NCBI GenBank assembly: GCA_900498245.1
Contig: LS998015.1
Location: 2,094,276 to 2,124,220 of the forward strand
Origin: Candidatus Zixiibacteriota bacterium
GTDB taxonomy: Bacteria > Zixibacteria > MSB-5A5 > GN15 > PGXB01
Direction: 5' to 3'
Length of the DNA stretch: 29,945 bases
In this document: positions 10,509 through 29,713 of the stretch, one piece after another
How the letters are laid out: each line of letters begins with the position of its first letter
How positions within the stretch are numbered: position 1 is the first letter of the stretch
Position numbers and translations under genes: made by a program
The notes under the pieces: model-generated
Database searches by the model: none
What the model was told of the DNA's origin: nothing
Seen by the model: only the letters and a program-made list of their open reading frames with translations

Positions 10509-11453
10509 TTATACCTTCACGCCCTTTTTGGCCGAGACATAAGTCAGCCAGCCATAAACGTCTTCGGCCCGCCCTTCGATAATTTCGAAAAATCGATTCT
10601 GCAATTTCTCGGTAATCGGCCCCCGGCGTCCCGCACCAATGACAATACCGTCGATCTCAGATATCGGAGAAACCTCAGCGGCTGAACCGGTGAAGAATAC
10701 CTCATCTGCGATGTATAACGCTTCGCGCGGAATATTTTCTTCAATCACCTTTATACCCATATCTTCGGCCAGTTTGATAATCGTGCGGCGGGTAATTCCA
10801 GGCAGAATTGATGCCGAAAAGGGCGGCGTCACCAGCACTCCGTTGCGGACAATAAAAATATTCTCGCCCGATCCTTCCGAGACATTTCCGTAAATATCGA
10901 GGGCAATTCCCTCCACACAACCGCGCGCCAGGGCTTCCATTTTTATCAGTTGTCCGTTCATATAATTGGCGCCCGCCTTGGCCATCATCGGCGTGGTATT
11001 GGGGGCATTGCGGTTCCACGACGAAACGCATACTCTTACGCCTTTCTCCATCGCCTCGGGGCCGAGATACTTGCCCCAATTCCAAGCCGCGATGGCGACA
11101 TCGATAGGGCATTTGCCAGGATCGACCCCCAGAGAGTCATAGCCGCGGTAAACGACAGGTCGAATATAGCAATCTTCGAGCCCGTTTACGACCACCAGTT
11201 CCAGGACGGCGTCGAAAATCTGCTGTTTTGTAAAGGGAATGACCATACGATAAATTTTGCACGAATCCCAGAGACGGTCGATATGCTCCATCAGACGAAA
11301 ACAAGCCGGCCCCTTGGGAGTTTTATAACAGCGCTGTCCTTCGAATATCGACGATCCATAATGGACAACATGGGACAGAACATGTATTCGGGCATCGTCC
11401 CACTTGACCATTTTGCCGTTCATCCATATGTACTCGACTTTATTAAAGGCCAT
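10509..11453 (-). CDS. ilvE: Branched-chain amino acid aminotransferase
   Basis: A class IV PLP aminotransferase that interconverts Leu/Ile/Val with their 2-oxo acids. Counting from ATG 11453, the 314-residue protein has the PLP lysine Lys159 in [12 protein letters not shown]. Other conserved segments are [13 protein letters not shown] at the entrance strand, EGSGENIF near the middle, and the phosphate-binding region [12 protein letters not shown] 11453 is preferred over a start 12 codons upstream because AGGAGG sits just ahead of it. It heads the ilvE-rpiB-glyA string. Since leucine transamination feeds isovaleryl-CoA metabolism, it may connect with the MCC-type cluster at 22.6-27 kb, though it is not adjacent. 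Confidence 0.95.
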
Positions 11454-11858
11454 GATTCCTCCTGAAATATTAGACGATAGATTCTCCAAATTCCTTATAA
11501 ATATATATTTTCCTTGGACCTATTTCAAGACCAATAAAAAGAAAATGGTGATCGCAGGACGGGCCCCGGAATCGCATTTTGCCGCAATTCAATTCCAATA
11601 ATCCGAAGAAAAAGGTTCATCTCTCCGCTAATTGGCCAAAATATGATTGTCATCTTTTAATATTCTACCATTTTATCCATCAAATAATTATCATAGAAGA
11701 TAAATAGTGTGACAAACAAGGCGCTCACTAACCGGATTCATATTTTTTTATCAAAATATGCAGAGAGTGAACGCGACAAGATCGGCAATTGGCCGCCTTT
11801 AGTGTTCAGTAGGCGGAATTCGTAAATCCAATCCGCGGGTCGCGGCCGGAAGCTGGAA
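11454..11858. other. Divergent intergenic region between ilvE and the exported GT-like gene
   Basis: About 400 bases without a convincing gene. It is AT-rich in the middle and must hold the ilvE promoter (minus) and that of the plus-strand gene at 11859. A minus-strand TATATT-like element near 11500-11510 could serve ilvE, but no full promoter with good spacing was found on either strand. No terminator, RNA or repeat was recognised. Confidence 0.5.
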
Positions 11859-15681: not shown

Positions 15682-16824
15682 TCACGAAACGGATTTTATT
15701 AATTCCCTGGCGATGACAAGACGCTGTATTTCCGATGTCCCCTCCCCTATTTCACAAAGTTTGGCATCGCGCCAGATTCTTTCGGCGGAGAACCTCCCGG
15801 TATAGCAGCCGATCCCGCCCAATATCTGTATCGCTCTGGCGGCAGTTCGCGTCCCCACTTCCCCGGCATATAACTTCGCCATCGCCGAATCCTGAGTAAA
15901 AACCACCCCGGCATCTTTCTTGGCCGCGGCCCCATAGACCAGATATCGCGCCGCTTGAATCTCGGTCGCCATATCGGCCAACTGCCACTGGATCGCCTGG
16001 TACTCGGCGATTGGCTTTCCGAATTGCTGACGTTCCGTCGCATACTTGAGGGCACAATCCAAGGCCCCCTGTGCCAATCCAAGCGCCATAGCGGCAATTG
16101 ATATCCGGCCGCCGTCGAGAGTGATCATGAATTGCTTGAATCCCTCGCCCAACTTGCCCAACTGATTCTCTTTCGGAATTTTCAGATCGGTAAAATGGAG
16201 AAAGGCCGTGTCGCTCCCACGCAGGCCCATTTTATTCTCCTTCTTGCCGATATCGTATCCCGGCCATCCCTTTTCTAGAATAAATGATGAAATGCCCTTT
16301 ACTCCCGGTTCGTCGGAAGTACGGGCGGTGGCGATCGAAGCGAAAGCGTGCGAAGCGGACGTAATAAAGCATTTGGTACCGTTCATTACCCAGTGATCAC
16401 CTTTTAGTTCGGCTTTGGTCTTAGTGGCCCCGGCATCCGATCCCGCTTCCGGCTCGGTCAGACCAAAGGCAATTAATTCCGCGCCGGTTCCGCGCGGCAG
16501 ATATTTCTTCCTCTGTTCCTCGGTGCCGAATTTGTAAATCGGAAAGAGTCCAAGTGAGTTATGCGCCGCAATGGTGATTCCGGTCGAGCCACAAACTCGC
16601 GACAACTCCTCCACCGCAATCGAATAGCAGGTAGTATCTACCGGTTTCCCCCCATATTCCTCCGGAACAACCATCCCCATCAGCCCCATTTCGGCCAACG
16701 ATTCCAGATGCCGGCCCATAAATTCTTGCTTTTGATCCAATTCGGCCGCAAAAGGTGCTATTTTTTCCAGAGCGTAGGCCCGAATCTTTTCCCTGAACTC
16801 ATGATGTTTTTTCTCGAGAAGCAT
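15682..16824 (-). CDS. Acyl-CoA dehydrogenase (short/medium-chain type)
   Basis: A 380-residue FAD enzyme that oxidises acyl-CoA to trans-2-enoyl-CoA, passing electrons to ETF. Seen are the FAD/substrate segments GLTEPEAGSDAG and FITSASHA, the helix LDGGRISIAAMALGLAQGALD, the RQQFGKPIAEYQAIQWQLADM region, and the C-terminal GEGTSEIQRLVIAREL. The catalytic glutamate is Glu361 in that last motif. This position is characteristic of short/medium-chain enzymes. Classical isovaleryl-CoA dehydrogenases lack it there and use a Glu in another helix. The start has AAGGAG ahead of it and lies 2 bases after the previous stop. It is the last gene of the operon. Confidence 0.95.
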   Translation of the reverse strand: MLLEKKHHEFREKIRAYALEKIAPFAAELDQKQEFMGRHLESLAEMGLMGMVVPEEYGGKPVDTTCYSIAVEELSRVCGSTGITIAAHNSLGLFPIYKFGTEEQRKKYLPRGTGAELIAFGLTEPEAGSDAGATKTKAELKGDHWVMNGTKCFITSASHAFASIATARTSDEPGVKGISSFILEKGWPGYDIGKKENKMGLRGSDTAFLHFTDLKIPKENQLGKLGEGFKQFMITLDGGRISIAAMALGLAQGALDCALKYATERQQFGKPIAEYQAIQWQLADMATEIQAARYLVYGAAAKKDAGVVFTQDSAMAKLYAGEVGTRTAARAIQILGGIGCYTGRFSAERIWRDAKLCEIGEGTSEIQRLVIARELIKSVS

Positions 16825-16826
16825 TG

Positions 16827-17966
16827 CTACTCCTTCAATAGATCGCGGGCGATTGTCATTTTCTGCGCTTCCGTCGTTCCTTCGTACAATTCGGTAACGC
16901 GGGCATCCCGGAAATATCTCTCCACCGGATATTCTTTCATATAGCCATATCCGCCGTGAATCTGCACCGCTTCATTTACTACGAAATTGGCCATCCGACT
17001 GCAGAACAATTTTGCCATCGAGGCTTCCCGTACGATCGGCTTCCCTTCGTCTTTCAGAGCCGCCGCCCGATAGGCAAGAATTCTCCCCGCTTCAATTTCG
17101 GTCGCCATATCGGCCAATTTGAATTGAATTGCCTGAAAATTGGCGATCGGCTGCTTGAATTGCTTCCGCTCCTTGGCATATTTGATCGCTTCCTCAAGAG
17201 CGGCGCGGGCAATGCCGATGGCCTGGAAGGAAACGCCGATCCGCCCGGAATTCAAAATGGAAAGGGCCATCTTGAACCCCTGCCCCGGAGCGCCAATCAT
17301 ATTTTCCTTAGGAACTTTCACATCCAAGAAAGATACCTCGCGGGTATCCGAGGCTCTCATTCCGCATTTATTTTCGGGGGCGCCGATTGATATTCCCGGT
17401 GTATCTTTATCGATTGCGAAACAGGAGATCCCTTTGTTGCCCGCCGACGGATCAGTTACGGCAAAGACAATAAATATTCCCGCAAATCCCGCATTAGTGA
17501 CAAATGTCTTGGTGCCGTTTATCAGGTAATGATCCCCCTTTTCAACCGCCGACGTCATGATGCCGGAGACATCGGTGCCGGCATTCGGCTCGGTGATACA
17601 ATATGACCCTACCATGCCGGTTGCCATCTGGGGAAGATATTTCTTCTTCAGAAAATCCGAAGCATACTTATGGATTATTTCACAGCAAAGAGAATTTTGA
17701 ACCGAAATCAAAATGCCGACTCCGGCACAGGCCGAACAAATCTCTTCAAGGGCACCGACAAAACTGACTGTCGAAAGCTCCAGGCCGCCGAATTCTTCGG
17801 GAAGCATCATTCCCAGATAACCCAATTCCGCCAATTCCTCCACCAGTTCCCCGGGAATTCCGTCTTCTTCGTCATATTTCATGGCATTGGGAACAAGCCG
17901 TTTCCGGGCAAACTCCCGAGCCGTCTCCTTAATCATCAGATCGTCTTCAGACAGGCCGTAATCCAT
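16827..17966 (-). CDS. Acyl-CoA dehydrogenase (second, divergent copy)
   Basis: A 379-residue acyl-CoA dehydrogenase. The segments CITEPNAGTDVSG and FVTNAGFAGIF mark the FAD-binding middle domain. The helix LNSGRIGVSFQAIGIARAALE and RKQFKQPIANFQAIQFKLADM mark the C-terminal domain. The final motif YEGTTEAQKMTIARDLL carries the catalytic Glu362. It is clearly divergent from the next gene rather than a recent duplicate. AAGGAG sits 7 bases before the ATG. It lies 15 bases after the 3-hydroxyacyl-CoA dehydrogenase stop. Substrate chain length cannot be read from the sequence; butyryl-CoA or a branched short acyl-CoA is plausible from context. Confidence 0.95.
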   Translation of the reverse strand: MDYGLSEDDLMIKETAREFARKRLVPNAMKYDEEDGIPGELVEELAELGYLGMMLPEEFGGLELSTVSFVGALEEICSACAGVGILISVQNSLCCEIIHKYASDFLKKKYLPQMATGMVGSYCITEPNAGTDVSGIMTSAVEKGDHYLINGTKTFVTNAGFAGIFIVFAVTDPSAGNKGISCFAIDKDTPGISIGAPENKCGMRASDTREVSFLDVKVPKENMIGAPGQGFKMALSILNSGRIGVSFQAIGIARAALEEAIKYAKERKQFKQPIANFQAIQFKLADMATEIEAGRILAYRAAALKDEGKPIVREASMAKLFCSRMANFVVNEAVQIHGGYGYMKEYPVERYFRDARVTELYEGTTEAQKMTIARDLLKE

Positions 17967-17981
17967 AAATAATCTCCTTAA

Positions 17982-18869
17982 TTACTTTTCATATATAAAG
18001 AATCCGCGCCCGGTCTTGCGGCCCAGATATCCAGCTTGAACCATCTTCCACAAAAGCGGGCAAGGACGATACTTCGAGTCGGAAAATCCCTTATATAGTA
18101 CTTCCATAATCGCCAGACAGACATCGAGCCCGATAAAATCAGCCAGAGTCAGCGGCCCCATGGGATGATTCATGCCCAATTTCATTACCGTATCGATATC
18201 CTCGGCCGACGCCACCCCTTCCATCAAGGCGTAAATCGCCTCGTTTATCATCGGCATCAGGATACGATTGGAAATGAAACCGGGAAAATCGTTCACCTCC
18301 ACCGGTGTTTTCCCCAGTCTCCGCGATAATTCCTGCGTCAAATGAAACGTTTCATCGCTGGTGGCGATGCCCCGTATCAATTCCACCAACGACATCATCG
18401 GCACCGGATTCATGAAATGCATCCCTATTACCCGTTCGGCGCGGCGGGTAGTTGCCGCTAATTGCGTGATTGGCAATGACGAAGTATTAGAAGCGAGAAT
18501 CGCACCGTTGGTGCAAATCATATCGAGTTGCTTGAAAACCGCAATCTTGGCCTCCAGATTCTCGTATATGGCCTCCACTATCAATTGCGCCTCTCGAAGA
18601 TCGTCCAATTTGGTGCCGAAATAAATCCGGTTCAGCGTATTATTCTTGTCCTGTTCGGTAATCTTTTCTTTCTTGATCATCCGGTCCAAATTGACTGTAA
18701 TCGTCTTCTTGGCTTTTTCCAGTATCTCATTCGAAGTATCCACAAGTATTACATCATATCCGCCCTGGGAACAAACATGAGCGATACCGTTCCCCATGGT
18801 TCCACCGCCAACCACGCCTATGATTTTGATGTCATCCAAATGCATATCCATAAACCCTGCCATTTTCAT
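17982..18869 (-). CDS. hbd: 3-hydroxybutyryl-CoA dehydrogenase
   Basis: The enzyme reversibly oxidises (S)-3-hydroxybutyryl-CoA to acetoacetyl-CoA. The 295-residue protein has the NAD(P)-binding motif GVVGGGTMGNGIAHVCSQGG near residue 18, the catalytic-His region GMHFMNPVPMM, the NDFPGFISNRILMPMINEA helix, and the MNHPMGPLTLADFIGLD dimer domain. The single-domain length matches bacterial Hbd rather than fused FadB. The start is uncertain by a few codons. ATG 18869 forms an ATGA overlap with the thiolase stop, while Met7 (18851) has a better AGGG ahead. Confidence 0.95.
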   Translation of the reverse strand: MKMAGFMDMHLDDIKIIGVVGGGTMGNGIAHVCSQGGYDVILVDTSNEILEKAKKTITVNLDRMIKKEKITEQDKNNTLNRIYFGTKLDDLREAQLIVEAIYENLEAKIAVFKQLDMICTNGAILASNTSSLPITQLAATTRRAERVIGMHFMNPVPMMSLVELIRGIATSDETFHLTQELSRRLGKTPVEVNDFPGFISNRILMPMINEAIYALMEGVASAEDIDTVMKLGMNHPMGPLTLADFIGLDVCLAIMEVLYKGFSDSKYRPCPLLWKMVQAGYLGRKTGRGFFIYEK

Positions 18870-20056
18870 GTCAATTCAATAGCCATGGCTACCGCATGAC
18901 CGCCTCCGAGACACAAAGTCGCCAAACCATTCTTCTTACCGCGATCCTTTAAGGCGTAAATCAAGGTCGCGAGAATTCTGGTCCCCGAGGCCCCAATGGG
19001 GTGACCCAGCGCCACCGCCCCGCCATGAACATTGACCCGGTTCCAATCCCAGCCCAGTTCTTTCCCGTCGGCCAGGGCCTGAACCGAGAACGCCTCATTG
19101 GCCTCAATCAGGTCGAAATGATTGACGTCTACCCCCATCTTATTGCAGAGTTTATTGACCGCACGTATCGGCGCAAAAAACAGAAGTTCCGGCTCAATTC
19201 CGGCCGTTGTGTATTCGACCACTCGCGCCAGGGGGGTCAGATTATTTTCCTTCATAAATTTCTCGGAAACGATTACCGACGCCGCCGCCCCGTCATTCAA
19301 GCCGGGCGCATTGCCGGCCGTCACCGTTCCATCCTTTTCAAACGCCGGTTTCAACTTGGCCAGACCTTCCACGGAAATATCGGCCCGCGGGCATTCATCG
19401 ACCTCAAAAATTTTCGGATCGCCCTTCTTCTGCGGAATGGCAACCGGAAATATTTCATTCTTAAATTTCCCTTGAGAAATTGCGGCCAGGGCCTTTTTAT
19501 GGGAATTGTAGGCGAATTCATCCTGCTCTTCCCGTGAAATACCGGCTTTGCGGGCCGTCAATTCGGCCGCACTGCCCATATGCCAGTTCTTGAAAGCGCA
19601 CCACAGGCCATCAAGCACCATCGAATCTTGAAGTTTCTTATCTCCGAATTTCAGTCCGCCCTTGGCGCCGTGCAGAACATACGGCGTTCCCGACATCGAT
19701 TCCATTCCACCCGCCACCACGCACTCCTGATCCCCGGCCCGTATTGACTGCGCCGCCAGCATGACCGCTTTTAGACCCGAGCCGCAGACTTTATTTATAG
19801 TCATAGCCGCTGTTTCCGCCGGCACTCCGCCCCAGATCGCGGCCTGCCGGGCCGGGGCCTGCCCCACGCCCGCCTGAACCACTTGTCCCATAATAACTTC
19901 ATCTATCTTCTTGGGGTCGATTTTAGCCCGCCCAACGGCCTCTTTGATCGCCAAAGAACCCAACTGGGTTGCCGTAAAACCTGATAATCCTCCCAGAAAA
20001 GTTCCAATCGCCGAACGACAGGCGGAAACAATATACGCTTCGTTTCTATTAGCCAT
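18866..20056 (-). CDS. atoB: Acetyl-CoA acetyltransferase (thiolase)
   Basis: A 396-residue biosynthetic-type thiolase that condenses two acetyl-CoA to acetoacetyl-CoA or cleaves it. All catalytic residues of the classical family are present: Cys91 in NKVCGSGLKAV, the NEAF motif near 319, His352 in GHPIGASG and Cys382 in CLGGGHA. AGGAGG lies upstream of the ATG. It heads the operon with hbd and two acyl-CoA dehydrogenases, forming a four-carbon CoA module. An enoyl-CoA hydratase for the same module is not in this operon; the nearest crotonase-fold gene is at 24620-25402. Confidence 0.96.
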   Translation of the reverse strand: MANRNEAYIVSACRSAIGTFLGGLSGFTATQLGSLAIKEAVGRAKIDPKKIDEVIMGQVVQAGVGQAPARQAAIWGGVPAETAAMTINKVCGSGLKAVMLAAQSIRAGDQECVVAGGMESMSGTPYVLHGAKGGLKFGDKKLQDSMVLDGLWCAFKNWHMGSAAELTARKAGISREEQDEFAYNSHKKALAAISQGKFKNEIFPVAIPQKKGDPKIFEVDECPRADISVEGLAKLKPAFEKDGTVTAGNAPGLNDGAAASVIVSEKFMKENNLTPLARVVEYTTAGIEPELLFFAPIRAVNKLCNKMGVDVNHFDLIEANEAFSVQALADGKELGWDWNRVNVHGGAVALGHPIGASGTRILATLIYALKDRGKKNGLATLCLGGGHAVAMAIELT

Positions 20057-20205: not shown

Positions 20206-20279
20206 CACGCCGATAAAATTAACTCACGGAGGAGTCCTCAACAAGGATTTCGAAAAGAGACTTAATGAAAGGAGATTTT

Positions 20280-20876
20280 ATGAAGAAACTCGCGTTGGTA
20301 GGATTGCTTCTTATGGTCATGGCCGTCTCGGCCGTCGCCCAGACTTCCCCCATCGACAAGAAGAGCTGGTTCCTGGGCGGATCTGTCTATTTTGAAACCC
20401 AGAGTGGCGACCTTTATAAAGTCGGCGACAAGAGTCCGTCAACCATTAATATCGGGCCGTCATTCGGCTATTTCATAGCCCCCAGCATATTTATCGGAGC
20501 CGATGTGCTTTACAACCAGTATAAGGTTGGGGATGCCAAGACCACCGCTCTCGGCCTGGGACCCGTTGTTGGCTATTATTTCAATATGAACAAGGCCCGC
20601 ACGGAAGTTAAAGGCTCCGTTTATCCTTATATCAAGGGCTTTTTCCAGTATGCGAGCTATAAAGATGAAACCGGTATCGAAACGAGCAAGATGACCGGCA
20701 CCAGTTTCGGCGCGATGGGCGGCATCAATTATATGCTGTCCGAGGCCGTCGGGCTTGATATCGCCGTGAAATTCAGCTCCGACAAAGCCAAGCAGAAAGA
20801 GCCGGTGGAAGGCGAATCAGTATCTGGATCCACCATCATGGTTGGCGCCGGCGTAACTTATTTTATTTGGAAATAA
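20280..20876 (+). CDS. Outer-membrane beta-barrel protein
   Basis: A 198-residue exported protein. The signal peptide MKKLALVGLLLMVMAVSAVAQ ends at residue 21. The mature part alternates hydrophobic and polar residues with Gly/aromatic-rich strands (FLGGSVYF, IGPSFGYF, LGLGPVVGYYF, FGAMGGINYM). It ends in a beta-strand with aromatic residues (GVTYFIWK), the usual barrel-assembly signal. This fits a small 8-stranded outer-membrane barrel of the OMP_b-brl or OmpW kind; ligand or function cannot be told. AAGGAG lies just ahead of ATG 20280, so the longer frame from 20265 is rejected. Confidence 0.85.
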   Translation: MKKLALVGLLLMVMAVSAVAQTSPIDKKSWFLGGSVYFETQSGDLYKVGDKSPSTINIGPSFGYFIAPSIFIGADVLYNQYKVGDAKTTALGLGPVVGYYFNMNKARTEVKGSVYPYIKGFFQYASYKDETGIETSKMTGTSFGAMGGINYMLSEAVGLDIAVKFSSDKAKQKEPVEGESVSGSTIMVGAGVTYFIWK

Positions 20877-21718: not shown

Positions 21719-21890
21719 TTATTCCTGTTTGGCTATTTCAATTTCATTTTATTCCCTTTCCGGGGGGGGAAGGAAAACATTGCGTGAACCCGGTTCTTGT
21801 GCCTGCGTACAATAAATTATCAAATTATTGTTAATGAGATTCCCAGGCCCAACTGGGGATGTGGTCTTTGCTTTAGAAAGGAGGATGTCC

Positions 21891-22508
21891 ATGAAGAAAC
21901 TAACCCTTCTGACTGTGGTTCTTCTGGCATTTTCGGTTTCATCGTTTGCGGAGACTATGTGGCGGCCGGTGCTCTATTTGGGGGGCGGAGCGAGTGTTCC
22001 CACCGGGAATTTCAAGGATGGCTTCAAAACCGGGTACAATTTCGCCAGCAGTTTCGGTTTCGAATATCATTCCTCGCTGGAACTTCTCGGCGAATTATCC
22101 TACAGCCGCTTCCCGCTCGATCAGACCAAATCCCTGGCCACGGAACCGCTGGGAACATCGGTCGACGGCGGCGCGGCTCGTGTGCTGAATATCGGCGGTG
22201 CGGTGCGCTATTACTTCACACCCGGTAGCGCCTTATCCAAATTTAGACCGTACATACTGGGCCGCCTCGGAGTGGCGCATTTATCTCAAGCCGATATGAC
22301 CATTGTCGGTCTCGATGGAACTACCATCAATTCGTTCTCCGGATCCACCAAGTTTACCTATGCCATCGGAGCCGGAACCAATATTGATCTAAATCGCAAT
22401 TTAGGGCTATGGGTGGAAGGAAAATTCGATGGTATCAGTACCCCCCTGCATAAAACTGATTATGTCCCTATCCAGGCCGGTATTCGATACATTTTTGGAA
22501 AGGAATAA
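21891..22508 (+). CDS. Outer-membrane beta-barrel protein
   Basis: A 205-residue exported protein. The signal peptide is about residues 1-19 (MKKLTLLTVVLLAFSVSSF). The mature part shows barrel strands rich in Gly and aromatics, such as LYLGGGASVP, FASSFGFEYH, LLGELSYSRF, IGGAVRYYF, YILGRLGVAHL and FTYAIGAGTNI. It ends in AGIRYIFGKE. The pattern matches outer-membrane beta-barrel domain proteins (OMP_b-brl). It is similar in design to the gene at 20280 but not an obvious duplicate. AAAGGAGG is 7 bases before ATG 21891, so starts at 21828 and 21885 are rejected. Confidence 0.85.
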   Translation: MKKLTLLTVVLLAFSVSSFAETMWRPVLYLGGGASVPTGNFKDGFKTGYNFASSFGFEYHSSLELLGELSYSRFPLDQTKSLATEPLGTSVDGGAARVLNIGGAVRYYFTPGSALSKFRPYILGRLGVAHLSQADMTIVGLDGTTINSFSGSTKFTYAIGAGTNIDLNRNLGLWVEGKFDGISTPLHKTDYVPIQAGIRYIFGKE

Positions 22509-22595: not shown

Positions 22596-23108
22596 TTATT
22601 TATTGTTTTCGGGGTCGCTTTCTATCTCCAGTTCGATTATGGGAATATCTGTTCCCACCTGATCTCCGTCGCGGAAATTGATTTTCTTAACTGTTCCCGC
22701 GGCGGGGGAATTAACCTGGTTCTCCATTTTCATCGCTTCGACAATCACCATTGGCTGTTTTGCCGAAATATTATCTCCTTCAGCAACCAGAATCTTCACC
22801 ACTTTTCCCGGCATCGGGGCAAAAATCTTGTCCTTGGCCAGGGCCGCCCCACCGGCCACAGAATTGGCCGTGTCGTCCAAATTAATGGCCAGTTCCAGAA
22901 GCAATCCTTCAACGTCGAGATAGGCCTTATCCTTCTCGATTACACAGCAAACCATTTTTCTGGCCCCGTTCAAATCGACAGCAAATTTGCGAGGCGTGAT
23001 TTCCTTGACAGAATAGCAATTCTCCCCGATTTCGATTTCAATCCCTTTCGGGGTGACATTCATTTTGGCTTCGATCAAGTCGTCTTCGAAACGGAAATGG
23101 TTAATCAT
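22596..23108 (-). CDS. Biotinyl (BCCP) subunit of an acyl-CoA carboxylase
   Basis: A 170-residue protein whose C-terminal half is a biotinyl domain. The biotin attachment motif EAMKMENQV places the carrier lysine at Lys127, flanked by MPGKVVKILV and the SPAAGTVKKINFRDGDQV hinge strands. The N-terminal 80 residues are a beta-rich segment of the type that joins biotin carboxylase to the carrier in methylcrotonyl-CoA carboxylase alpha subunits. Its ATG overlaps the biotin carboxylase stop (ATGA). Together the two make 674 residues, about the length of a single fused MCC alpha subunit. It is the last gene of the operon. Confidence 0.9.
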   Translation of the reverse strand: MINHFRFEDDLIEAKMNVTPKGIEIEIGENCYSVKEITPRKFAVDLNGARKMVCCVIEKDKAYLDVEGLLLELAINLDDTANSVAGGAALAKDKIFAPMPGKVVKILVAEGDNISAKQPMVIVEAMKMENQVNSPAAGTVKKINFRDGDQVGTDIPIIELEIESDPENNK

Positions 23109-24619
23109 TTGGACATCCTCACTCCGATTTCCCAGGGGCCGATTGTTTGCCAGGGGGAAATATCAGCGACTTTCGTCCCCTTGATTGTCGGCAGGGATTT
23201 TTGCATCAGTGCCACGGATATCGCCGCGGCCCCGATTTCGACGGCTGGAACAATATCCACCGTCCGATCCGTCATATTCTTCTCGATAAAATCAGTATAG
23301 GTGCGCCCGGCTTTGAATTCCGGATGGTTGAGGACATCGATCATGAAACGCCGCGAAGTCTTAATCCCGAGAATCCTATAGTCTTTCAGGGCATTTATCA
23401 TTTTGGCGATGGCCAGATCCCGGGTCGGCGCGTGGACTATTAGTTTTGCCAATATGGGATCATACTCCACCCCAATTTGCGAATCGCGGCAAACTCCCGA
23501 ATCGACCCGGATTCCCGGCCCGAACGGTTCTTCGTAGTATAGAATCTTTCCCGAAGATGGCAAAAAGTTGTTTTCTCCGTCTTCGGCATATATTCGGCAT
23601 TCGATAGAATGTCCCCTCTGCGCCGGTCTCAATAGATAATCCGAAATTTTTTCGCCGGCCGCGATCCGAATCTGTTCGACCACCAGATCGGCCCCGGTTA
23701 CCATTTCGGTGACAGGATGCTCTACTTGAATGCGGGTATTCATCTCCAGGAAATAGAAACCACCGTTTTTATCAAACAAGAATTCCACCGTCCCGGCATT
23801 TCGATATCCGGCCGCCGTCGCCACCCGCACCGCCGCCGCCCCCATCTGGGCCCGCAGGGCCGGCGTCAGGGCCGTCGACGGCGTTTCCTCGATTATTTTC
23901 TGATGGCGCCTCTGAATGGAGCATTCCCTCTCAAAGAGATGAACCGTATTCCCGTAATTATCACCCAATACTTGAAACTCGATATGCCGCGGGTTTTCAA
24001 TATACTTCTCCAGGTAAACCGTATCGTCGCCGAAGGCATTCTTGGCTTCGCGCATGGCGGCTTCGACCGATGCTTTAAGATCCTCCCTTTTGTGAACTAC
24101 TCTCATGCCTTTGCCGCCGCCGCCCGCCGCCGCTTTTATTAGGACTGGATAGCCGGACTCTTCCGCCGCCCGCTCGAAAGCACCCAGGTCGGCTCCGGCA
24201 TTCTTCATTCCCGGAATAATCGGCACGCCGGCTGTCGCCATTTTTATCCGTGATTGAATCTTGTTCCCCAGCAGCCGCATCGCTTCCGCCGATGGCCCGA
24301 TAAACGTAATTCCGGCCTTTTCGCAGGCTTGCGGGAAAAGGGGGTTCTCGGCCAGAAAACCATAGCCGGGATGAATGGCGTCACAACCGTGCCCCTCGGC
24401 CGTATTTACAATTTTCTCGATATCAAGATATGATTCCCGCGGAGGTGGCGGGCCGATTTCCACCGCTTCATCCGCCACGCGGGTATGCACCGCGTTTCTA
24501 TCGGCCGTGGAGTAAATGGCCAGTGTCGGAATATCCAGAAGCCGACAGGCCTGGAGCACCCGCACTGCTATTTCACCGCGATTCGCAACTAATACCCGTT
24601 TAAATAATCTTTTCGTCAT
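23105..24619 (-). CDS. Biotin carboxylase subunit of an acyl-CoA carboxylase
   Basis: A 504-residue biotin carboxylase that uses ATP and bicarbonate to carboxylate biotin. Seen are the N-terminal LVANRGEIAVRV, the HPGYGFLAEN loop near 84, the ATP-grasp glycine loop GGGGKG at 166-171 with Lys162 ahead of it, and EMNTRIQVEHPVTE at 292-305. After the normal catalytic core (about 450 residues) is a tail (DISPWQTIGPWEIGV) resembling the linker that continues into the carrier part of MCC alpha. The start follows the hydratase stop directly (TAGATG). Neighbours point to 3-methylcrotonyl-CoA as substrate. Propionyl- or acetyl-CoA use is less likely given the partner beta subunit. Confidence 0.93.
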   Translation of the reverse strand: MTKRLFKRVLVANRGEIAVRVLQACRLLDIPTLAIYSTADRNAVHTRVADEAVEIGPPPPRESYLDIEKIVNTAEGHGCDAIHPGYGFLAENPLFPQACEKAGITFIGPSAEAMRLLGNKIQSRIKMATAGVPIIPGMKNAGADLGAFERAAEESGYPVLIKAAAGGGGKGMRVVHKREDLKASVEAAMREAKNAFGDDTVYLEKYIENPRHIEFQVLGDNYGNTVHLFERECSIQRRHQKIIEETPSTALTPALRAQMGAAAVRVATAAGYRNAGTVEFLFDKNGGFYFLEMNTRIQVEHPVTEMVTGADLVVEQIRIAAGEKISDYLLRPAQRGHSIECRIYAEDGENNFLPSSGKILYYEEPFGPGIRVDSGVCRDSQIGVEYDPILAKLIVHAPTRDLAIAKMINALKDYRILGIKTSRRFMIDVLNHPEFKAGRTYTDFIEKNMTDRTVDIVPAVEIGAAAISVALMQKSLPTIKGTKVADISPWQTIGPWEIGVRMSK

Positions 24620-25402
24620 CTATTCACCCGCCCATTTCGGTTTTCTTTTTTCAAGAAAGGCATTCATCCCCTCTTGTCCCTCGCTTGAAATCCGCAGACG
24701 CGCGATCATCTCGGCCGTATACGGTTTATATTCCGCTTCCGTCATGTTGGGCACGGCCGAAACCAATTTTTTGGCCACTCCCACTGCTTCCGGGCCCGAC
24801 GATTTGATCGTCTTCAACAAATCCTCTATCGCATCGTCCAATTTGTCATCGGCCACAAATCTGTTTATTAGGCCCGCCTGAAAAGCCTTCTCCGAGTTCA
24901 TCCGCTCGCCGGTTATAAAAAACTCCCGGGCCTTGCCTTCGCCGATTTTTTTCACCACATACGGTCCAATGCAGGCCGGAACCAGCCCGATCTTCACTTC
25001 GGAAAAAGAGAATTTCGCCGATTCCGCCGCTATCGCGATATCGCAAACCGCCACAAATCCGACTCCCCCGCCAATGGCGGCACCGTTAATTTTGCCGATT
25101 ACCGGGCAGGGGAAATTATAGATAAGAGCAAATAGATCCGCCAGAGCCGTCGCCTCTTTCAAATTTTCTTCAAATGACTGGGTGATAACTTTTTTCATCC
25201 AGTTGAGATCAGCCCCCGCGCAAAACGACTTTCCCTCACCCGAAAGAACGACCGCCCTGATCGATTTGCTCTTGCTCAATTGAGTAAAGAGGTCCGTCAT
25301 CTCATAAATGACCGTGTCATTGAAAGCGTTATGGACTTCGGGACGACAGAAAGTGATACCCGCAACGTCGTCTTCTGAACGATAGTTAATAGTACTGTAC
25401 AT
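24620..25402 (-). CDS. liuC: Enoyl-CoA hydratase family protein, methylglutaconyl-CoA hydratase-like
   Basis: A 260-residue crotonase-fold protein, by context the hydratase that interconverts 3-methylglutaconyl-CoA and HMG-CoA. The oxyanion-hole segment SFCAGADLNWM and the GGGVG turn are present. The second catalytic glutamate of crotonases is kept as Glu135 (FSFSEVKIGLVPA), but the first is replaced by Gly115 in GGGVGFVAVCD. The C-terminus has the usual EGMNAFLEKRKPKW. An earlier start at 25450 would overlap the carboxyltransferase gene; ATG 25402 lies 4 bases after that stop. The gene order beta-carboxylase, hydratase, alpha-carboxylase is that of leucine-degradation (liu) clusters. Confidence 0.85.
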   Translation of the reverse strand: MYSTINYRSEDDVAGITFCRPEVHNAFNDTVIYEMTDLFTQLSKSKSIRAVVLSGEGKSFCAGADLNWMKKVITQSFEENLKEATALADLFALIYNFPCPVIGKINGAAIGGGVGFVAVCDIAIAAESAKFSFSEVKIGLVPACIGPYVVKKIGEGKAREFFITGERMNSEKAFQAGLINRFVADDKLDDAIEDLLKTIKSSGPEAVGVAKKLVSAVPNMTEAEYKPYTAEMIARLRISSEGQEGMNAFLEKRKPKWAGE

Positions 25403-25406
25403 CGCT

Positions 25407-27014
25407 CTACATCCTGAATACACCGTATTGCTGATCTGGAATTTCGCCATTTAGCGACATCGATATGGCCAGCGCCAGTGCTTCCCGCGTTTCCGTCATA
25501 CCAATTATGCCGTCATCCCAGAGTCTGGCCGTCGAATAATACGGCAATGACTCCGCCTCATATTTCTCGATAATGGGACGACGGATTTCATCGATCTGCT
25601 CCGGTGTCAACTTGGTCCCGCCCCGCTCCAATTGGTGTATCTTCACGGTAGCCAGCACATCGGCGGCCTGTTCCCCACCCATCACGCATATTTTTGAATT
25701 CGGCCACATCCACAAAAGCCGCGGGAAATACCCCCGTCCGCACATAGCGTAATTGCCCGCGCCGTAAGAGCCGCCGACAATAACCGTGAATTTGGGCACC
25801 TGGGCGTTGGCCACGGCATGCACCATCTTGGCGCCATCGCGGGCGATACCGCCGGCTTCATATTGCCGCCCGACTATGAACCCGGTAATGTTCTGCAAGA
25901 AGAGAATCGGGATCTTGCGCATGGTGCAGAGCTCGATAAAATGCGCCCCCTTAAGCGCTGATTCCGAGAACAGCACGCCGTTATTCCCGAGTATTCCGAC
26001 CGGATACCCCATTATCCGCGCGAATCCGCAGACCAAGGTTATCCCGTACAATTCTTTGAATTCGTGGAACTTGGAGCCGTCAACCAGCCGCGCGATAACC
26101 TCGCGAATATCGTATTGCTTGCGAATATCATTGGGCACCACGCCGAAAAGTTCGTCCGGGTCATAATACGGTTCTTCCGGCTCTTCTCTTTCCAGTTCGA
26201 ATTTCGGCCGACGATTCAAATTTTCGATAATATTGCGGCAAATCGCAAGGGCATGACGATCGTCCTGAGCATAATGATCGGTCACTCCGGAAACACGGCA
26301 GTGCACATCGGCTCCGCCCAATTCCTCGGCCGTGACCACTTCACCCGTAGCGGCTTTCACCAAGGGCGGGCCGCCGATAAAAATCGTCCCCTGATTACGG
26401 ACAATTACCGTTTCATCGGACATCGCCGGAAGGTACGCCCCCCCCGCCGTGCATGAACCAAGAACCGCCGATATCTGCGGAATTCCTTTGGCCGACATCC
26501 GGGCCTGATTATAAAATATCCTTCCGAAATGATCTTTGTCGGGGAAAACACCGGATTGAAGCGGAAGGTAAATGCCGCCGGAATCGACCAGATACACACA
26601 GGGGAGATTGTTTTCCTCGGCGATCTGTTGAGCCCGGCCATGTTTTAAAATAGTAATGGGGTAGTAGGTTCCCCCTTTGACGGTGGCGTCGTTGGCAATC
26701 ACCATCACTTCCCGGCCGTGCACCACTCCGATTCCCGTGATCAATCCCGACGCCGGGGCGTCATCGTCATACATATCGTAGGCGGCCAGCGATGACAATT
26801 CCAGAAACGGCGTATTCTTGTCGAATAACAGCCCCACCCGGTCGCGCGTCAGAAGTTTGCCCCGTTCCAGGTGCACCTTGCGGGCCTTCTCCGTCCCCCC
26901 CTCTTTGACTTTCTCCAACCGCATCTTCAAGACCAGATGCTGCTCTTTATTCTTTAAATAATTATCCCGGTAACTGTCGGAACTTGTACTTACCTTCGAT
27001 TCTATCCTATACAT
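25407..27014 (-). CDS. liuB: Methylcrotonyl-CoA carboxylase beta (carboxyltransferase) subunit
   Basis: A 535-residue carboxyltransferase that moves CO2 from biotin to 3-methylcrotonyl-CoA, giving 3-methylglutaconyl-CoA. The sequence has the MCC-type signatures [20 protein letters not shown] followed by [37 protein letters not shown] and [14 protein letters not shown]. In the second half are [42 protein letters not shown] and GGEQAADVL. The [18 protein letters not shown] stretch separates MCC (and geranyl-CoA carboxylase) from propionyl-CoA carboxylase, which has ARIQEGV there. The ribosome binding site is weak (GGG). An 80-base gap with a hairpin separates it from the DUF35 gene. Confidence 0.93.
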
Positions 27015-27053
27015 TTATACCCAATCCCAGTCGATTCAGGATTTAAGGGACAT

Positions 27054-27081
27054 TGGCCGGGATAATTTCTTATCCCGGCCA
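27054..27081 (-). other. Intercistronic hairpin without U-tract
   Basis: TGGCCGGGATAA (27054-27065) and TTATCCCGGCCA (27070-27081) form a perfect 12-bp stem with a TTTC loop. No run of T follows on the minus strand, so it is not a standard terminator. It lies between the DUF35 and carboxyltransferase genes and could be an RNA processing or stabilising element. Confidence 0.6.
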
Positions 27082-27094
27082 TGTTGACAAACGA

Positions 27095-27490
27095 TTAGTA
27101 CCACTTGGGTACGAATTTATATCCGTAACTGAGAACCCCCTGATGGCCGTCGGTCTGCACTCTGCGAAATTCGATATTGATATCCATCCCAACCTTGATT
27201 TTATCGACATCGCAATCGGTCACCTGGGCCAGCAGTCTGACACCGTTGGTCAGTTCAGCGATACCGATAGCGTACGGGGCCTCATCAGTAAATTGCGACG
27301 GAGCCACGCGGATAACGCTGAAAGAAACCAATTTCCCCGTATCGGGAAGAATGACTTTTTTAAATTCCCGATGCCCGCAGACAGGGCAGATTAGGCGTCT
27401 CGGAAACACGACTTTTCCGCACTTCTTGCATTCCCCGGCTTCGAGACGATACCGATGCGGATATTCTCTATGGGCACGTGCTGGAAACAT
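27095..27490 (-). CDS. Zn-ribbon OB-fold protein (DUF35), partner of HMG-CoA synthase/thiolase
   Basis: A 131-residue DUF35 protein. A rubredoxin-like zinc ribbon CKKCGKVVFPRRLICPVCG (four Cys) is followed by an OB-fold with GKLVSFSVIRVAP, PYAIGIAEL and RLLAQVTDCDVDKIKVGM. In archaea such a protein scaffolds the acetoacetyl-CoA thiolase and HMG-CoA synthase in one complex with a shared CoA site. Here it directly follows those two genes and overlaps the thiolase stop by one base (TGATG), so the same role is likely. It has no catalytic residues of its own. Confidence 0.93.
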   Translation of the reverse strand: MFPARAHREYPHRYRLEAGECKKCGKVVFPRRLICPVCGHREFKKVILPDTGKLVSFSVIRVAPSQFTDEAPYAIGIAELTNGVRLLAQVTDCDVDKIKVGMDINIEFRRVQTDGHQGVLSYGYKFVPKWY

Positions 27491-28650
27491 CAGATCACCT
27501 CCAGGATATGAACCAGAGTTGAACCGCCCGAACCGCCCATATTCTGGGCCAGCCCCACTTTCGGCGCCTTTTTCAGTTGCCGTCCATTTTCCGCAGTTCC
27601 GCTCAGTTGCTTGACCAATTCAATTATTTGACCGATACCGGTCGCTCCGACTGGATGGCCCTTTGACTTCAGGCCGCCCGATGTGTTAATCGGAAACCTG
27701 CCCTCCAATCCCGTTTCGCCCCTTAGTGCGGCCTCGCCGCCCTTTCCTGCCGGGAAAATTCCCAGCGACTCGGTCACCACTATCTCCGCAATCGTGAAAC
27801 AATCATGCACCTCGGCGAAATTTATATCCTTAATCGTTTTGCCGGCCATCTTGAACGCCCTCTCGGCGGCCAGAGTGGTCGCCCGAAGCGTCGTCATATC
27901 TTCGCGCGAGTGCAGGGCAATCGAATCGGTGGCATGTCCGGAGCCGATTATCTTAATAATCGGCTTTTTCAACTTCTTGGCGATTTCGACAGTCGTCAGG
28001 ATGACCGCCGCCCCCCCATCGGTAATAGGCGAGCAATCCATTATTCTCAAGGGACTGGCGACCATGACCGATTCTTCGACTTCTTCTTTGCTCGTCTTAA
28101 AGGGGTATTGCGCATACGGGTTCATCGCACCGTTAAAATGGTTCTTGACCGCCACCGCCGAAAGCATATCCCGGGTTGTCCCGTACTTCTGCATATGCGC
28201 AACCGCCAATAGGGCATATAGCCCGGGGAAAGTCGCGCCGTGAAACACTTCATATTCCTGATCGGCCGCCGTCGCCAGCGCATACGTTGCCCCGTCGCCG
28301 GACACATCGGTCATTTTCTCCACCCCTCCAGCCAGCACGATATCCGACATTCCCGAAGCCACCTCGATAAAGGCCGTCCGGAAAGCCAAACCGCCTGAAG
28401 CGCAGGCCGATTCGACCCGCGACGCCGGAAGACCTGCCTGACCGAGATAATCGGCCAGAAGCGAGCCCAGATGCTCCTGCCCGGCGAAAAGCCCGCCCGA
28501 CATACAGCCGACTACCATCGAATCGATATGATCGACTCCAGCATCATCGATCGCGGCCAGGGCCGGTTCCACAAAGACATCGCGAAGTGATTTCTCCCAC
28601 AATTCCCCCCATTTATTCAATCCTACGCCAACTACTGCTACATCTCTCAT
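27490..28650 (-). CDS. Archaeal/SCP-x-type acetyl-CoA acetyltransferase (thiolase)
   Basis: A 386-residue thiolase of the SCP-x/archaeal branch that likely makes or cleaves acetoacetyl-CoA. The nucleophile Cys83 lies in [12 protein letters not shown]. In place of the classical NEAF motif is HDCF (His282). His332 sits in [15 protein letters not shown]. The C-terminal second cysteine motif of classical thiolases is replaced by [10 protein letters not shown]. These are traits of the archaeal form that works with HMG-CoA synthase and DUF35. It is clearly different from the classical thiolase at 18866-20056. AGGAGGTGA precedes the ATG. It lies 13 bases after the HMG-CoA synthase stop. Confidence 0.92.
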
Positions 28651-28663
28651 GCTCCGTCACCTC

Positions 28664-29713
28664 CTAATCATTCTTCCGTATTTTATGCCGGAATTTGGCA
28701 TAGGTACCGTATTCAACAAAACTGATATTTTCGTCAAGCAGTTTGGTCGTCCTGACCGCCTTGTCCCGAACTTCATTAATGCGGTCGGTCACCTTCCAGA
28801 CAAACCCGTCGGATCCGGCGCCGGAACCGTATGATACCATCAGGATCATATCTCCCGGCTTGGCGATATCAAGAGTGGCTGTCAATCCGATCGGCGACGA
28901 ACCTGAATAAGTATTGCCCAAGCGCGGTGTCAGCCAGCCCGGCTCAATCTGTTCCTTCTTGAATCCGAGCATTTTGCCCACCCGCATCGGGAACTTCCCA
29001 TTGGGTTGATGAAACACGACATAGTTGAAATCTGAGGGCTTCATTCCGACCTTCTTCATGATTCCATTGGCACAACCGGTGACATGCTTGAAATAGGCCG
29101 GCTCCCCTGTAAAACGGCCGCCGTGTTGCGGATAGAATTGATATTCCCGCCGCCAAAAATCGGGCGTGTCGGTCATGAAAGAATAGGTCTCAATCGCTTC
29201 CGCGATGATGTTCTCCGCACCCATAATATAGGCCGCCGCTCCGGCCGAGGCCGAATACTCCAAGGCGTCTCCCGGGGCTCCCTGCGAAGTATCAGCACCG
29301 ATCGCGAGAGCATATTTAACATATCCGGACTTGACTAATCCCAGGCAGACAAACATTGCTTCCGACCCGGCCTTGCAGGCAAACTCAAAATCGGCGCAAT
29401 GAATCTCCGGGGTGGCGCCTAGCGCCTCGGCCACGACTGTCCCGGACGGTTTGACCGCATAAGGGTGGGATTCAGAACCGACATAGATCGCCCCGATGTC
29501 AGCCGGATCGATTTTTCCGGCGCGCAACAGCGCGTTGCGGGCCGCCGTCACGGAAAGAGTTATTGTATCCGTGTCGGGTGACGGGACCGATTTCTGGGTC
29601 AGCATCAATCCTTTTTTATAACTTGGCGCATCCGCTCCCCAGACTTTGGCGATTTCTTCGACCTTTATCCGGTGGCGCGGTATGTGCGCTCCATATCCGA
29701 CGATACCTACCAT
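28664..29713 (-). CDS. Archaeal-type hydroxymethylglutaryl-CoA synthase
   Basis: A 349-residue HMG-CoA synthase that condenses acetoacetyl-CoA with acetyl-CoA. The catalytic triad is visible: Glu81 in [12 protein letters not shown], Cys113 in [11 protein letters not shown] and His235 in [11 protein letters not shown], at nearly the positions of the S. aureus enzyme (Glu79, Cys111, His233). The length (about 350) and the motifs ACKAG and HQPNGKFP are those of the archaeal form; eukaryotic and typical bacterial MvaS forms are longer or differ there. It is the first gene of the trio, with GAGG 5 bases before the ATG. HMG-CoA reductase is not in the window, so it need not serve mevalonate synthesis. 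Confidence 0.93.

Follow-up and report, generated by a model that had tools for sequence, protein, structure and literature searches.

An archaeal-type HMG-CoA synthase complex encoded together with methylcrotonyl-CoA carboxylase in a Zixibacterium probably serves leucine degradation

The archaeal complex of thiolase, HMG-CoA synthase (HMGS) and DUF35 protein, known from the Methanothermococcus structure 6ESQ, feeds mevalonate synthesis, and its thiolase has a CoA-binding site in common with HMGS, an enzyme taught as being committed to synthesis. HMG-CoA is also an intermediate of the Pseudomonas liu pathway, in which it is reached through methylcrotonyl-CoA carboxylase (MCC) and the hydratase LiuC and cleaved by the HMG-CoA lyase LiuE. 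A similar carboxylase-hydratase-lyase logic is followed by the acyclic terpene utilisation (Atu) pathway, whose AtuA has been described to act as a lyase on a homologue of HMG-CoA, releasing acetate (PMC4847356). In the alternative isovaleryl-CoA pathway of Myxococcus (MvaS, LiuC, AibA/AibB and AibC), HMG-CoA synthase and LiuC connect HMG-CoA with isovaleryl-CoA; LiuC reportedly works there in the reverse direction (PMC9636800), and AibA/AibB are employed (PMC7756340). Here we analysed a 29,945-nucleotide stretch of DNA, hereafter the window, from the genome of a Zixibacterium. A tightly packed operon of seven genes, located at 22596-29713 on the minus strand, encodes in this order HMGS, an SCP-x thiolase, a DUF35 protein, MCC-beta, a LiuC-like hydratase, a biotin carboxylase and a biotin carboxyl carrier protein (BCCP) (Table 1). 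No description of this joining of the HMGS/thiolase/DUF35 trio to MCC was found in the open-access literature, including for Aminicenantes in connection with leucine and HMG-CoA.

Table 1. Operon genes and neighbouring genes in the window, with the matches on which their assignments are based.
Feature	Coordinates	Strand	Basis
Archaeal-type HMG-CoA synthase (first operon gene)	28664..29713	-	TIGR00748, 552 bits; 6esq_I, E 7e-138
SCP-x-type acetoacetyl-CoA thiolase	27490..28650	-	PRK06064, 516 bits; PDB 7yvy, 6esq_A E 6e-108
DUF35 scaffold protein, zinc ribbon and OB fold	27095..27490	-	PF12172, PF01796; 6esq_E, E 7.5e-32
MCC-beta (carboxyltransferase)	25407..27014	-	PF01039; 3u9r, E 5e-225
LiuC-like hydratase, putatively of 3-methylglutaconyl-CoA	24620..25450	-	Crotonase family; PRK07468, PRK05674
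Biotin carboxylase, half of split MCC alpha	23105..24619	-	PRK08654, PRK08591, three Pfam domains
BCCP, second half of split MCC alpha	22596..23108	-	PF00364; EAMKMEN motif
Acetyl-CoA C-acetyltransferase (thlA)	18866..20056	-	TIGR01930, 454 bits; synteny
3-Hydroxybutyryl-CoA dehydrogenase	17982..18869	-	PRK05808, 453 bits, over cut-off
Acyl-CoA dehydrogenase 1, LYEGT	16827..17966	-	PF00441/PF02770/PF02771; short-chain acyl-CoA dehydrogenase relatives
Acyl-CoA dehydrogenase 2, IGEGT	15682..16824	-	Short-chain acyl-CoA dehydrogenase relatives
Branched-chain aminotransferase	10509..11489	-	TIGR01122, 437 bits, over cut-off

As a preliminary description of this DNA had proposed, the trio is of the archaeal type, with HMGS, thiolase and DUF35 protein each clearly akin to its 6ESQ counterpart, the genes adjacent and the catalytic residues kept. 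Chains of 6ESQ are the top PDB matches of HMGS and of the DUF35 protein, and the second match of the thiolase, 3 bits behind 7yvy. HMGS retains catalytic Glu81, Cys113 and His235, the PRK06064-type thiolase has Cys83 and His332, and the DUF35 protein carries zinc-ribbon cysteines at 21, 24, 35 and 38. The three proteins would presumably form a physical complex in bacteria as well. The trio might instead act as an acyltransferase like PhlABC, or as some other system of thiolase and DUF35 protein, devoid of HMG-CoA chemistry; PhlA and PhlB do share homology with the HMGS and DUF35 subunits. We consider this extremely unlikely, for the window HMGS scores far over the TIGR00748 cut-off of 353 bits and retains the catalytic Cys and Glu that PhlA is missing (PMC6392133).

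The trio had been described as running into MCC beta, a hydratase and MCC alpha parts; all seven genes were found, the alpha parts being separate biotin carboxylase and BCCP genes. The MCC set is complete, with an MCC-type carboxyltransferase whose top PDB match is the Pseudomonas MCC-beta, a biotin carboxylase (PRK08654, 629 bits; PRK08591, over its cut-off; three biotin-carboxylase Pfam domains) and a BCCP with its biotinylation motif. The hydratase matches PRK07468 (268 bits) and the gamma-carboxygeranoyl-CoA hydratase model PRK05674 (231 bits), both under the curated cut-off, and its gene context points to 3-methylglutaconyl-CoA as the substrate. Because its open reading frame overlaps MCC-beta, the hydratase probably begins at an ATG further into the frame. 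The branched-chain aminotransferase of the window probably catalyzes the leucine entry step, and an IlvE-like gene is the last gene of the cluster at loci L097, L193 and L210. The set of thiolase, 3-hydroxyacyl-CoA dehydrogenase and two acyl-CoA dehydrogenases (15682-20056) accompanies the cluster in relatives. Both acyl-CoA dehydrogenases have the catalytic Glu at the butyryl-type place, and neither, including the second, is recognisably isovaleryl-type. In Eisenbacteria locus L184, the acyl-CoA dehydrogenase beside MCC, considered as a candidate isovaleryl-CoA dehydrogenase, has Gly in place of the usual Glu, but its top PDB matches are general acyl-CoA dehydrogenases. Genome-wide questions were addressed by family searches, which returned several candidate genes in the window genome, both for the E1 component of 2-oxoacid dehydrogenase and for 2-oxoacid:ferredoxin oxidoreductase.

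We also asked whether the seven genes stay together in other genomes, and found the order from HMGS to BCCP kept across Zixibacteria families, Aminicenantes, Eisenbacteria and Coatesbacteria. HMGS and MCC-beta lie at most 15 kb apart in 49 of the 75 Zixibacteria genomes that have both, against about 0.9% expected per genome; in 24 of the other 26 the two genes are on different contigs, so that linkage cannot be judged there. This linkage is not due to chance. Distances for HMGS and MCC-beta correlate (Spearman 0.55, with none of 500 permutations equally high), a correlation to which common genome ancestry also contributes. At three Zixibacteria loci (L091, L098 and L099) and three Eisenbacteria loci (L167, L173 and L184), leucine dehydrogenase is encoded immediately upstream of HMGS or one gene further, and the same loci carry propionyl-CoA carboxylase, methylmalonyl-CoA mutase, epimerase and often butyrate kinase.

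The window contains neither an HMG-CoA lyase nor an HMG-CoA reductase, in agreement with the preliminary description; LiuE is missing from the cluster, and ScoA had no match in the window genome at 1e-30. Of the 101 Zixibacteria genomes that are MCC-positive, 77 carry the trio but no true HMG-CoA lyase, two have the lyase only, two have both and 20 have neither; the trio is also present in 15 MCC-negative genomes, mostly incomplete bins. ScoA was found in four of five lyase genomes and in one of 92 trio genomes. Outside known Zixibacteria, none of the 26 genomes in which trio and carboxylase are linked has an HMG-CoA lyase over the cut-off. In one relative, a positional exchange was observed: the cluster of G009 (CT-ECH-BC-BCCP-[HMG-CoA lyase-ScoA-ScoB]-thlA-hbd-acd1-acd2-ilvE; locus L210) has no trio and is otherwise collinear with the window, lyase and 3-oxoacid CoA-transferase taking the place of the trio.

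One gene of the window genome (G000:C1:551413) passes the HMG-CoA lyase model NF004283 with 280 bits against a cut-off of 246, and its catalytic motifs are retained in the alignment. Its product could in principle cut HMG-CoA, and leucine-derived HMG-CoA might be cleaved by this or some other enzyme while the trio makes HMG-CoA otherwise and owes its position to history. We regard this as unlikely. The gene lies far from the leucine cluster, in an operon with class-III CoA-transferase and LeuCD-like genes, which is a citramalate-type context; it occurs in only 12 of the 77 MCC-positive trio genomes, and NF004283 has no match in G077, G078, G083 and G085, relatives with near-complete genomes that share the trio-MCC operon of the window. 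Members of its class adjoin or are coupled with a class-III CoA-transferase, with LeuCD-like genes too where the locus extends far enough. Alignment and neighbours place the gene in a second, CoA-transferase-coupled class rather than with the true HMG-CoA lyases.

A further explanation is that the trio supplies mevalonate for isoprenoids and sits beside a liu operon by accident. HMG-CoA reductase does occur in 14 of 132 Zixibacteria, most of which have no IspH; in four of these, G119-G122, the trio is on one contig and MCC on another, and the reductase lies near the trio at loci L181 and L185. The trio may therefore serve isoprenoids too in the 13 trio genomes with a reductase, but the reductase is absent from the other 81 of 94, and reaches a high score in only three of the 26 linked-cluster genomes outside known Zixibacteria. 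The preliminary description had tied this explanation to a lyase in a separate leucine cluster together with a complete mevalonate pathway; in the window genome, a PF00368 search returned no HMG-CoA reductase, the MEP enzyme IspH is present, and the lyase-like gene belongs to the CoA-transferase/LeuCD operon. An accidental isoprenoid supplier is accordingly very unlikely.

The linked leucine genes and the missing HMG-CoA lyase suggest instead that a complex built for synthesis is run backwards. We consider it likely that the operon encodes the lower part of leucine (isovalerate) degradation, with the trio making the final cut in the cleaving direction. Isovaleryl-CoA would be oxidised to 3-methylcrotonyl-CoA, which MCC would carboxylate with consumption of one ATP; HMG-CoA would then be produced by the LiuC-like hydratase. 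With CoA, HMGS would convert HMG-CoA to acetyl-CoA and an acetoacetyl group that the thiolase would immediately split into two more acetyl-CoA, this downhill thiolysis driving the uphill reversal of HMGS. The net yield would be three acetyl-CoA with one thioester saved and no free acetoacetate, so that a CoA-transferase would not be needed. Compared with the Pseudomonas liu pathway, the Zixibacterium cluster has MCC alpha split in two genes and the trio instead of LiuE, without 3-oxoacid CoA-transferase; compared with the archaeal complex, its trio is accompanied by MCC and a hydratase instead of HMG-CoA reductase and is probably reversed. This interpretation is supported by gene content, by the kept linkage and by the fact that most carriers are without HMG-CoA lyase, 3-oxoacid CoA-transferase and HMG-CoA reductase. 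Of the two directions put forward in the preliminary description, degradation is favoured by comparison across genomes, through the exchange in G009, the leucine dehydrogenase before HMGS and the lyase count outside Zixibacteria; it is from such genomic context that we infer reverse catalysis. HMGS is generally held to drive condensation strongly, so reversal requires a low acetyl-CoA/CoA ratio or a build-up of HMG-CoA, and the thermodynamics are tight.

The distribution of AtuA bears on the direction of the pathway. AtuA is found in 35 Zixibacteria genomes, next to MCC-beta where inspected, and adjoins MCC in 15 of the 20 MCC-positive genomes with neither trio nor lyase; it is absent from the window genome, and in relatives it stands beside the HMGS trio or without it. 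The opposite direction, put forward in the preliminary description as a route to isovaleryl-CoA in which MCC substitutes for AibA/AibB, would convert three acetyl-CoA to HMG-CoA, followed by dehydration, reversal of MCC with formation of ATP, and reduction. Every intermediate lines up, HMGS is normally synthetic and LiuC has its reversed precedent in Myxococcus (PMC9636800). Nevertheless, this synthetic route is improbable: MCC is an ATP-driven carboxylase, the relatives' clusters include leucine dehydrogenase, propionyl-CoA carboxylase and methylmalonyl-CoA mutase, and the G009 version employs HMG-CoA lyase and 3-oxoacid CoA-transferase. Many relatives have MCC without HMGS, and in the 15 that have AtuA a synthetic route makes no sense. 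The Zixibacterium locus differs from the Myxococcus pathway in having the MCC biotin carboxylase for the AibA/AibB decarboxylase, of which none was seen within the window's cluster, and in its catabolic context.

Since the predicted fold of AtuA matches citramalate lyase, AtuA is a candidate for a third exit from HMG-CoA. With phylogenetic correction, the comparison of AtuA with trio loss comprises 2-5 independent pairs and is underpowered. We tentatively propose, at a confidence just short of even, that relatives use three interchangeable exits: HMG-CoA lyase with 3-oxoacid CoA-transferase; the reversed, thioester-keeping trio, across several uncultured phyla; and AtuA, acting as an HMG-CoA:acetate lyase and yielding acetoacetyl-CoA and acetate.

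If the channelled complex does reverse, textbook leucine degradation gains a second, thioester-saving ending. This could be of importance to bacteria limited in energy, since the thioester that is kept offsets the ATP consumed by MCC. AtuA, whose family takes its name solely from its pathway, would gain a testable substrate, and annotations that now take the trio for mevalonate synthesis would be corrected across many uncultured phyla.

The union of an archaeal-type HMG-CoA synthase (HMGS), an SCP-x-type thiolase and a DUF35 protein (the trio) with a 3-methylcrotonyl-CoA carboxylase (MCC)/hydratase module, proposed in the preliminary description, was confirmed by gene order, model scores, structure matches and a residue check showing preserved catalytic residues. 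The module comprises a carboxyltransferase (CT, MCC-beta), a LiuC-like hydratase (ECH), a biotin carboxylase (BC) and BCCP; protein identities rest on curated models and solved structures. The window occupies 2,094,276-2,124,220 (29,945 bases) of a single-contig 3.51 Mb genome, whose relatives are labelled Candidatus Zixiibacteriota. Upstream of the HMGS start lie unrelated genes, with a ClpB/DnaJ/DnaK run (named by sequence reading alone) from 0.9 kb into neighbourhood L087, and HMGS is therefore the first gene of the unit. Two ORFs of about 200 residues in the gap between BCCP and thlA resemble secreted or outer-membrane proteins; similar small ORFs occur at the equivalent gap in neighbourhoods L126 and L192-L200.

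Features of the window, its genome (G000) and one relative
Feature	Coordinates	Strand	Identification
HMGS, thiolase, DUF35, CT, ECH, BC, BCCP, consecutive in that order	window 29713-22596	minus	
HMGS			TIGR00748, 552 bits; 6esq_I, E 7e-138
Thiolase			6esq_A, E 6e-108, narrowly second to 7yvy
DUF35			top structure match 6esq_E, E 7.5e-32
CT			Pseudomonas MCC-beta 3u9r, E 5e-225
Gap ORF	window 20265-20876	plus	
Gap ORF	window 21828-22508	plus	
Lyase-like gene	G000 551413-552285		280 bits, HMG-CoA-lyase model
Lyase-like, class-III CoA-transferase, LeuC-like, LeuD-like operon	G000:C1:551413-555371 (= L086:9911-13871)		
AtuA of a relative	L192:7572-9371		PF07287

The order of the seven genes was repeated among 38 neighbourhoods of relatives, often with thlA-hbd-acd1-acd2 (thiolase, 3-hydroxyacyl-CoA dehydrogenase, two acyl-CoA dehydrogenases) next; in some of these the trio stood alone, mostly on short contigs or in Zixibacteria family f2. 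Scanning 84,980 species genomes yielded 80 loci, with identical gene order in Aminicenantes, Eisenbacteria and Coatesbacteria and an alternative order, HMGS-thiolase-DUF35-ECH-BC, in bins labelled Phycisphaera/Phycisphaerales and Deltaproteobacteria; these labels are the submitters' own, and one is plainly wrong (L112, labelled 'Ignavibacterium', has an MCC-beta identical to that of Zixibacteria genome G077). No more than 15 kb separates HMGS from MCC-beta in 49 of the 75 Zixibacteria genomes with both genes (about 0.9% expected per genome); in 24 of the other 26 the two are on separate contigs. Five neighbourhoods (L091, L098, L099, L163, L184) hold a branched-chain catabolic supercluster of propionyl-CoA carboxylase, methylmalonyl-CoA mutase, epimerase, leucine dehydrogenase, butyrate kinase, trio and MCC.

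Two readings had been offered, leucine degradation with the HMGS complex reversed and isovaleryl-CoA synthesis from acetyl-CoA, and four lines of evidence point to the catabolic direction. First, the cluster of Zixibacteria genome G009 (PCC-MCM-epimerase-CT-ECH-BC-BCCP-HMGL-ScoA-ScoB-thlA-hbd-acd1-acd2-ilvE) is collinear with the window's, lacks the trio and carries after BCCP an HMG-CoA lyase and both 3-oxoacid CoA-transferase subunits. Second, an ELFV-family leucine dehydrogenase lies upstream of HMGS in Zixibacteria (L091, L098, L099) and Eisenbacteria (L167, L173, L184), accompanied by genes for propionyl-CoA carboxylase, methylmalonyl-CoA mutase and the epimerase and, in many cases, for butyrate kinase. 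Third, most MCC-positive genomes (77 of 101, counting partial trios cut by a contig end) have the trio without a true HMG-CoA lyase, the remainder having lyase alone (2), both (2) or neither (20); at 90% completeness or more (n=72) the respective numbers are 54, 2, 1 and 15. ScoA is found in 4/5 lyase genomes versus 1/92 trio genomes. Fourth, 15 of the 20 genomes with neither trio nor lyase retain MCC together with AtuA; MCC therefore works without HMGS, which fits a degradative route with another exit and does not fit the synthetic one. Leucine degradation is the best supported reading.

AtuA (about 600 residues) immediately precedes MCC-beta in many relatives, among them most of the loci inspected, and occurs in 35 of 132 Zixibacteria genomes; its gene lies outside the window, the instances coming from L192 and 34 other Zixibacteria genomes. 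In the acyclic terpene utilisation (Atu) pathway, AtuA is described as a lyase that releases acetate from a homologue of HMG-CoA (PMC4847356). The sole significant fold match of its predicted structure (mean pLDDT 70) was citramalate lyase 9evf_A (E 2e-20), making AtuA a candidate HMG-CoA:acetate lyase that could, by analogy, cut HMG-CoA into acetoacetyl-CoA and acetate. AtuA is associated with trio absence (odds 9, p 5e-5) in genomes mostly from two families, for which a tree-based test is underpowered.

HMG-CoA lyase, missing from the window, has a single match above cut-off in the whole genome, and this protein may have HMG-CoA activity, but its operon is read as citramalate-type. It belongs to a second class (18 genomes, 268-283 bits plus one fragment), apart from five genomes scoring 360-407 bits whose genes adjoin biotin carboxylase or BCCP genes. 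A class-III CoA-transferase is next in every second-class case, followed by LeuC in many whose locus extends enough; the pair of lyase-like and CoA-transferase genes was found again in 17 other Zixibacteria genomes. The nearest models of the operon's CoA-transferase are succinate-glutarate and formyl-CoA transferases, both under cut-off. The operon resembles a citramalyl-CoA lyase route, perhaps one for isoleucine or citramalate metabolism. Four genomes with a full trio-MCC operon (G077, G078, G083, G085; 95-100% complete) gave zero HMG-CoA-lyase matches.

That the trio supplies isoprenoids is unlikely in the window's genome: HMG-CoA reductase was not found there in a search of 132 genomes (14 positive), and the genome has IspH, a MEP-pathway enzyme with matches above cut-off in 106 of the 132. 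Dual use is likely in the 13 of 94 trio genomes with a reductase. Among 26 genomes outside known Zixibacteria, selected for a trio linked to carboxylase genes, no HMG-CoA lyase passed the cut-off (highest score 63 bits, cut-off 246; genome completeness not estimated), and three high-scoring HMG-CoA reductases were found. In two loci from bins labelled Deltaproteobacteria (L181, L185), a reductase lies a few kb ahead of HMGS, and in one of them the trio is followed by the hydratase and a biotin carboxylase; the trio may serve both isoprenoids and leucine there. Several genomes of Zixibacteria families f9, f10, f15 and f17 have the reductase without IspH, a pattern suggesting that the mevalonate pathway took over from the MEP pathway within the phylum.

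In the archaeal complex, thiolase and HMGS have a common CoA site and the acetoacetyl group stays unreleased (PMC12329534). During leucine degradation, reversed HMGS would transfer an acyl group from HMG-CoA to CoA and hand the acetoacetyl group to the thiolase. Acetoacetyl-CoA thiolysis should yield roughly 25 kJ/mol, and HMGS reversal should cost about 25 kJ/mol or more, so that the two steps together would be close to equilibrium or uphill and a low acetyl-CoA/CoA ratio would be needed; these energetics are the weakest point of the proposal. The route would be a variant of the known leucine pathway, new as far as the open-access literature searched, though an earlier description is possible, and the reversed complex would gain one thioester relative to lyase plus CoA-transferase.
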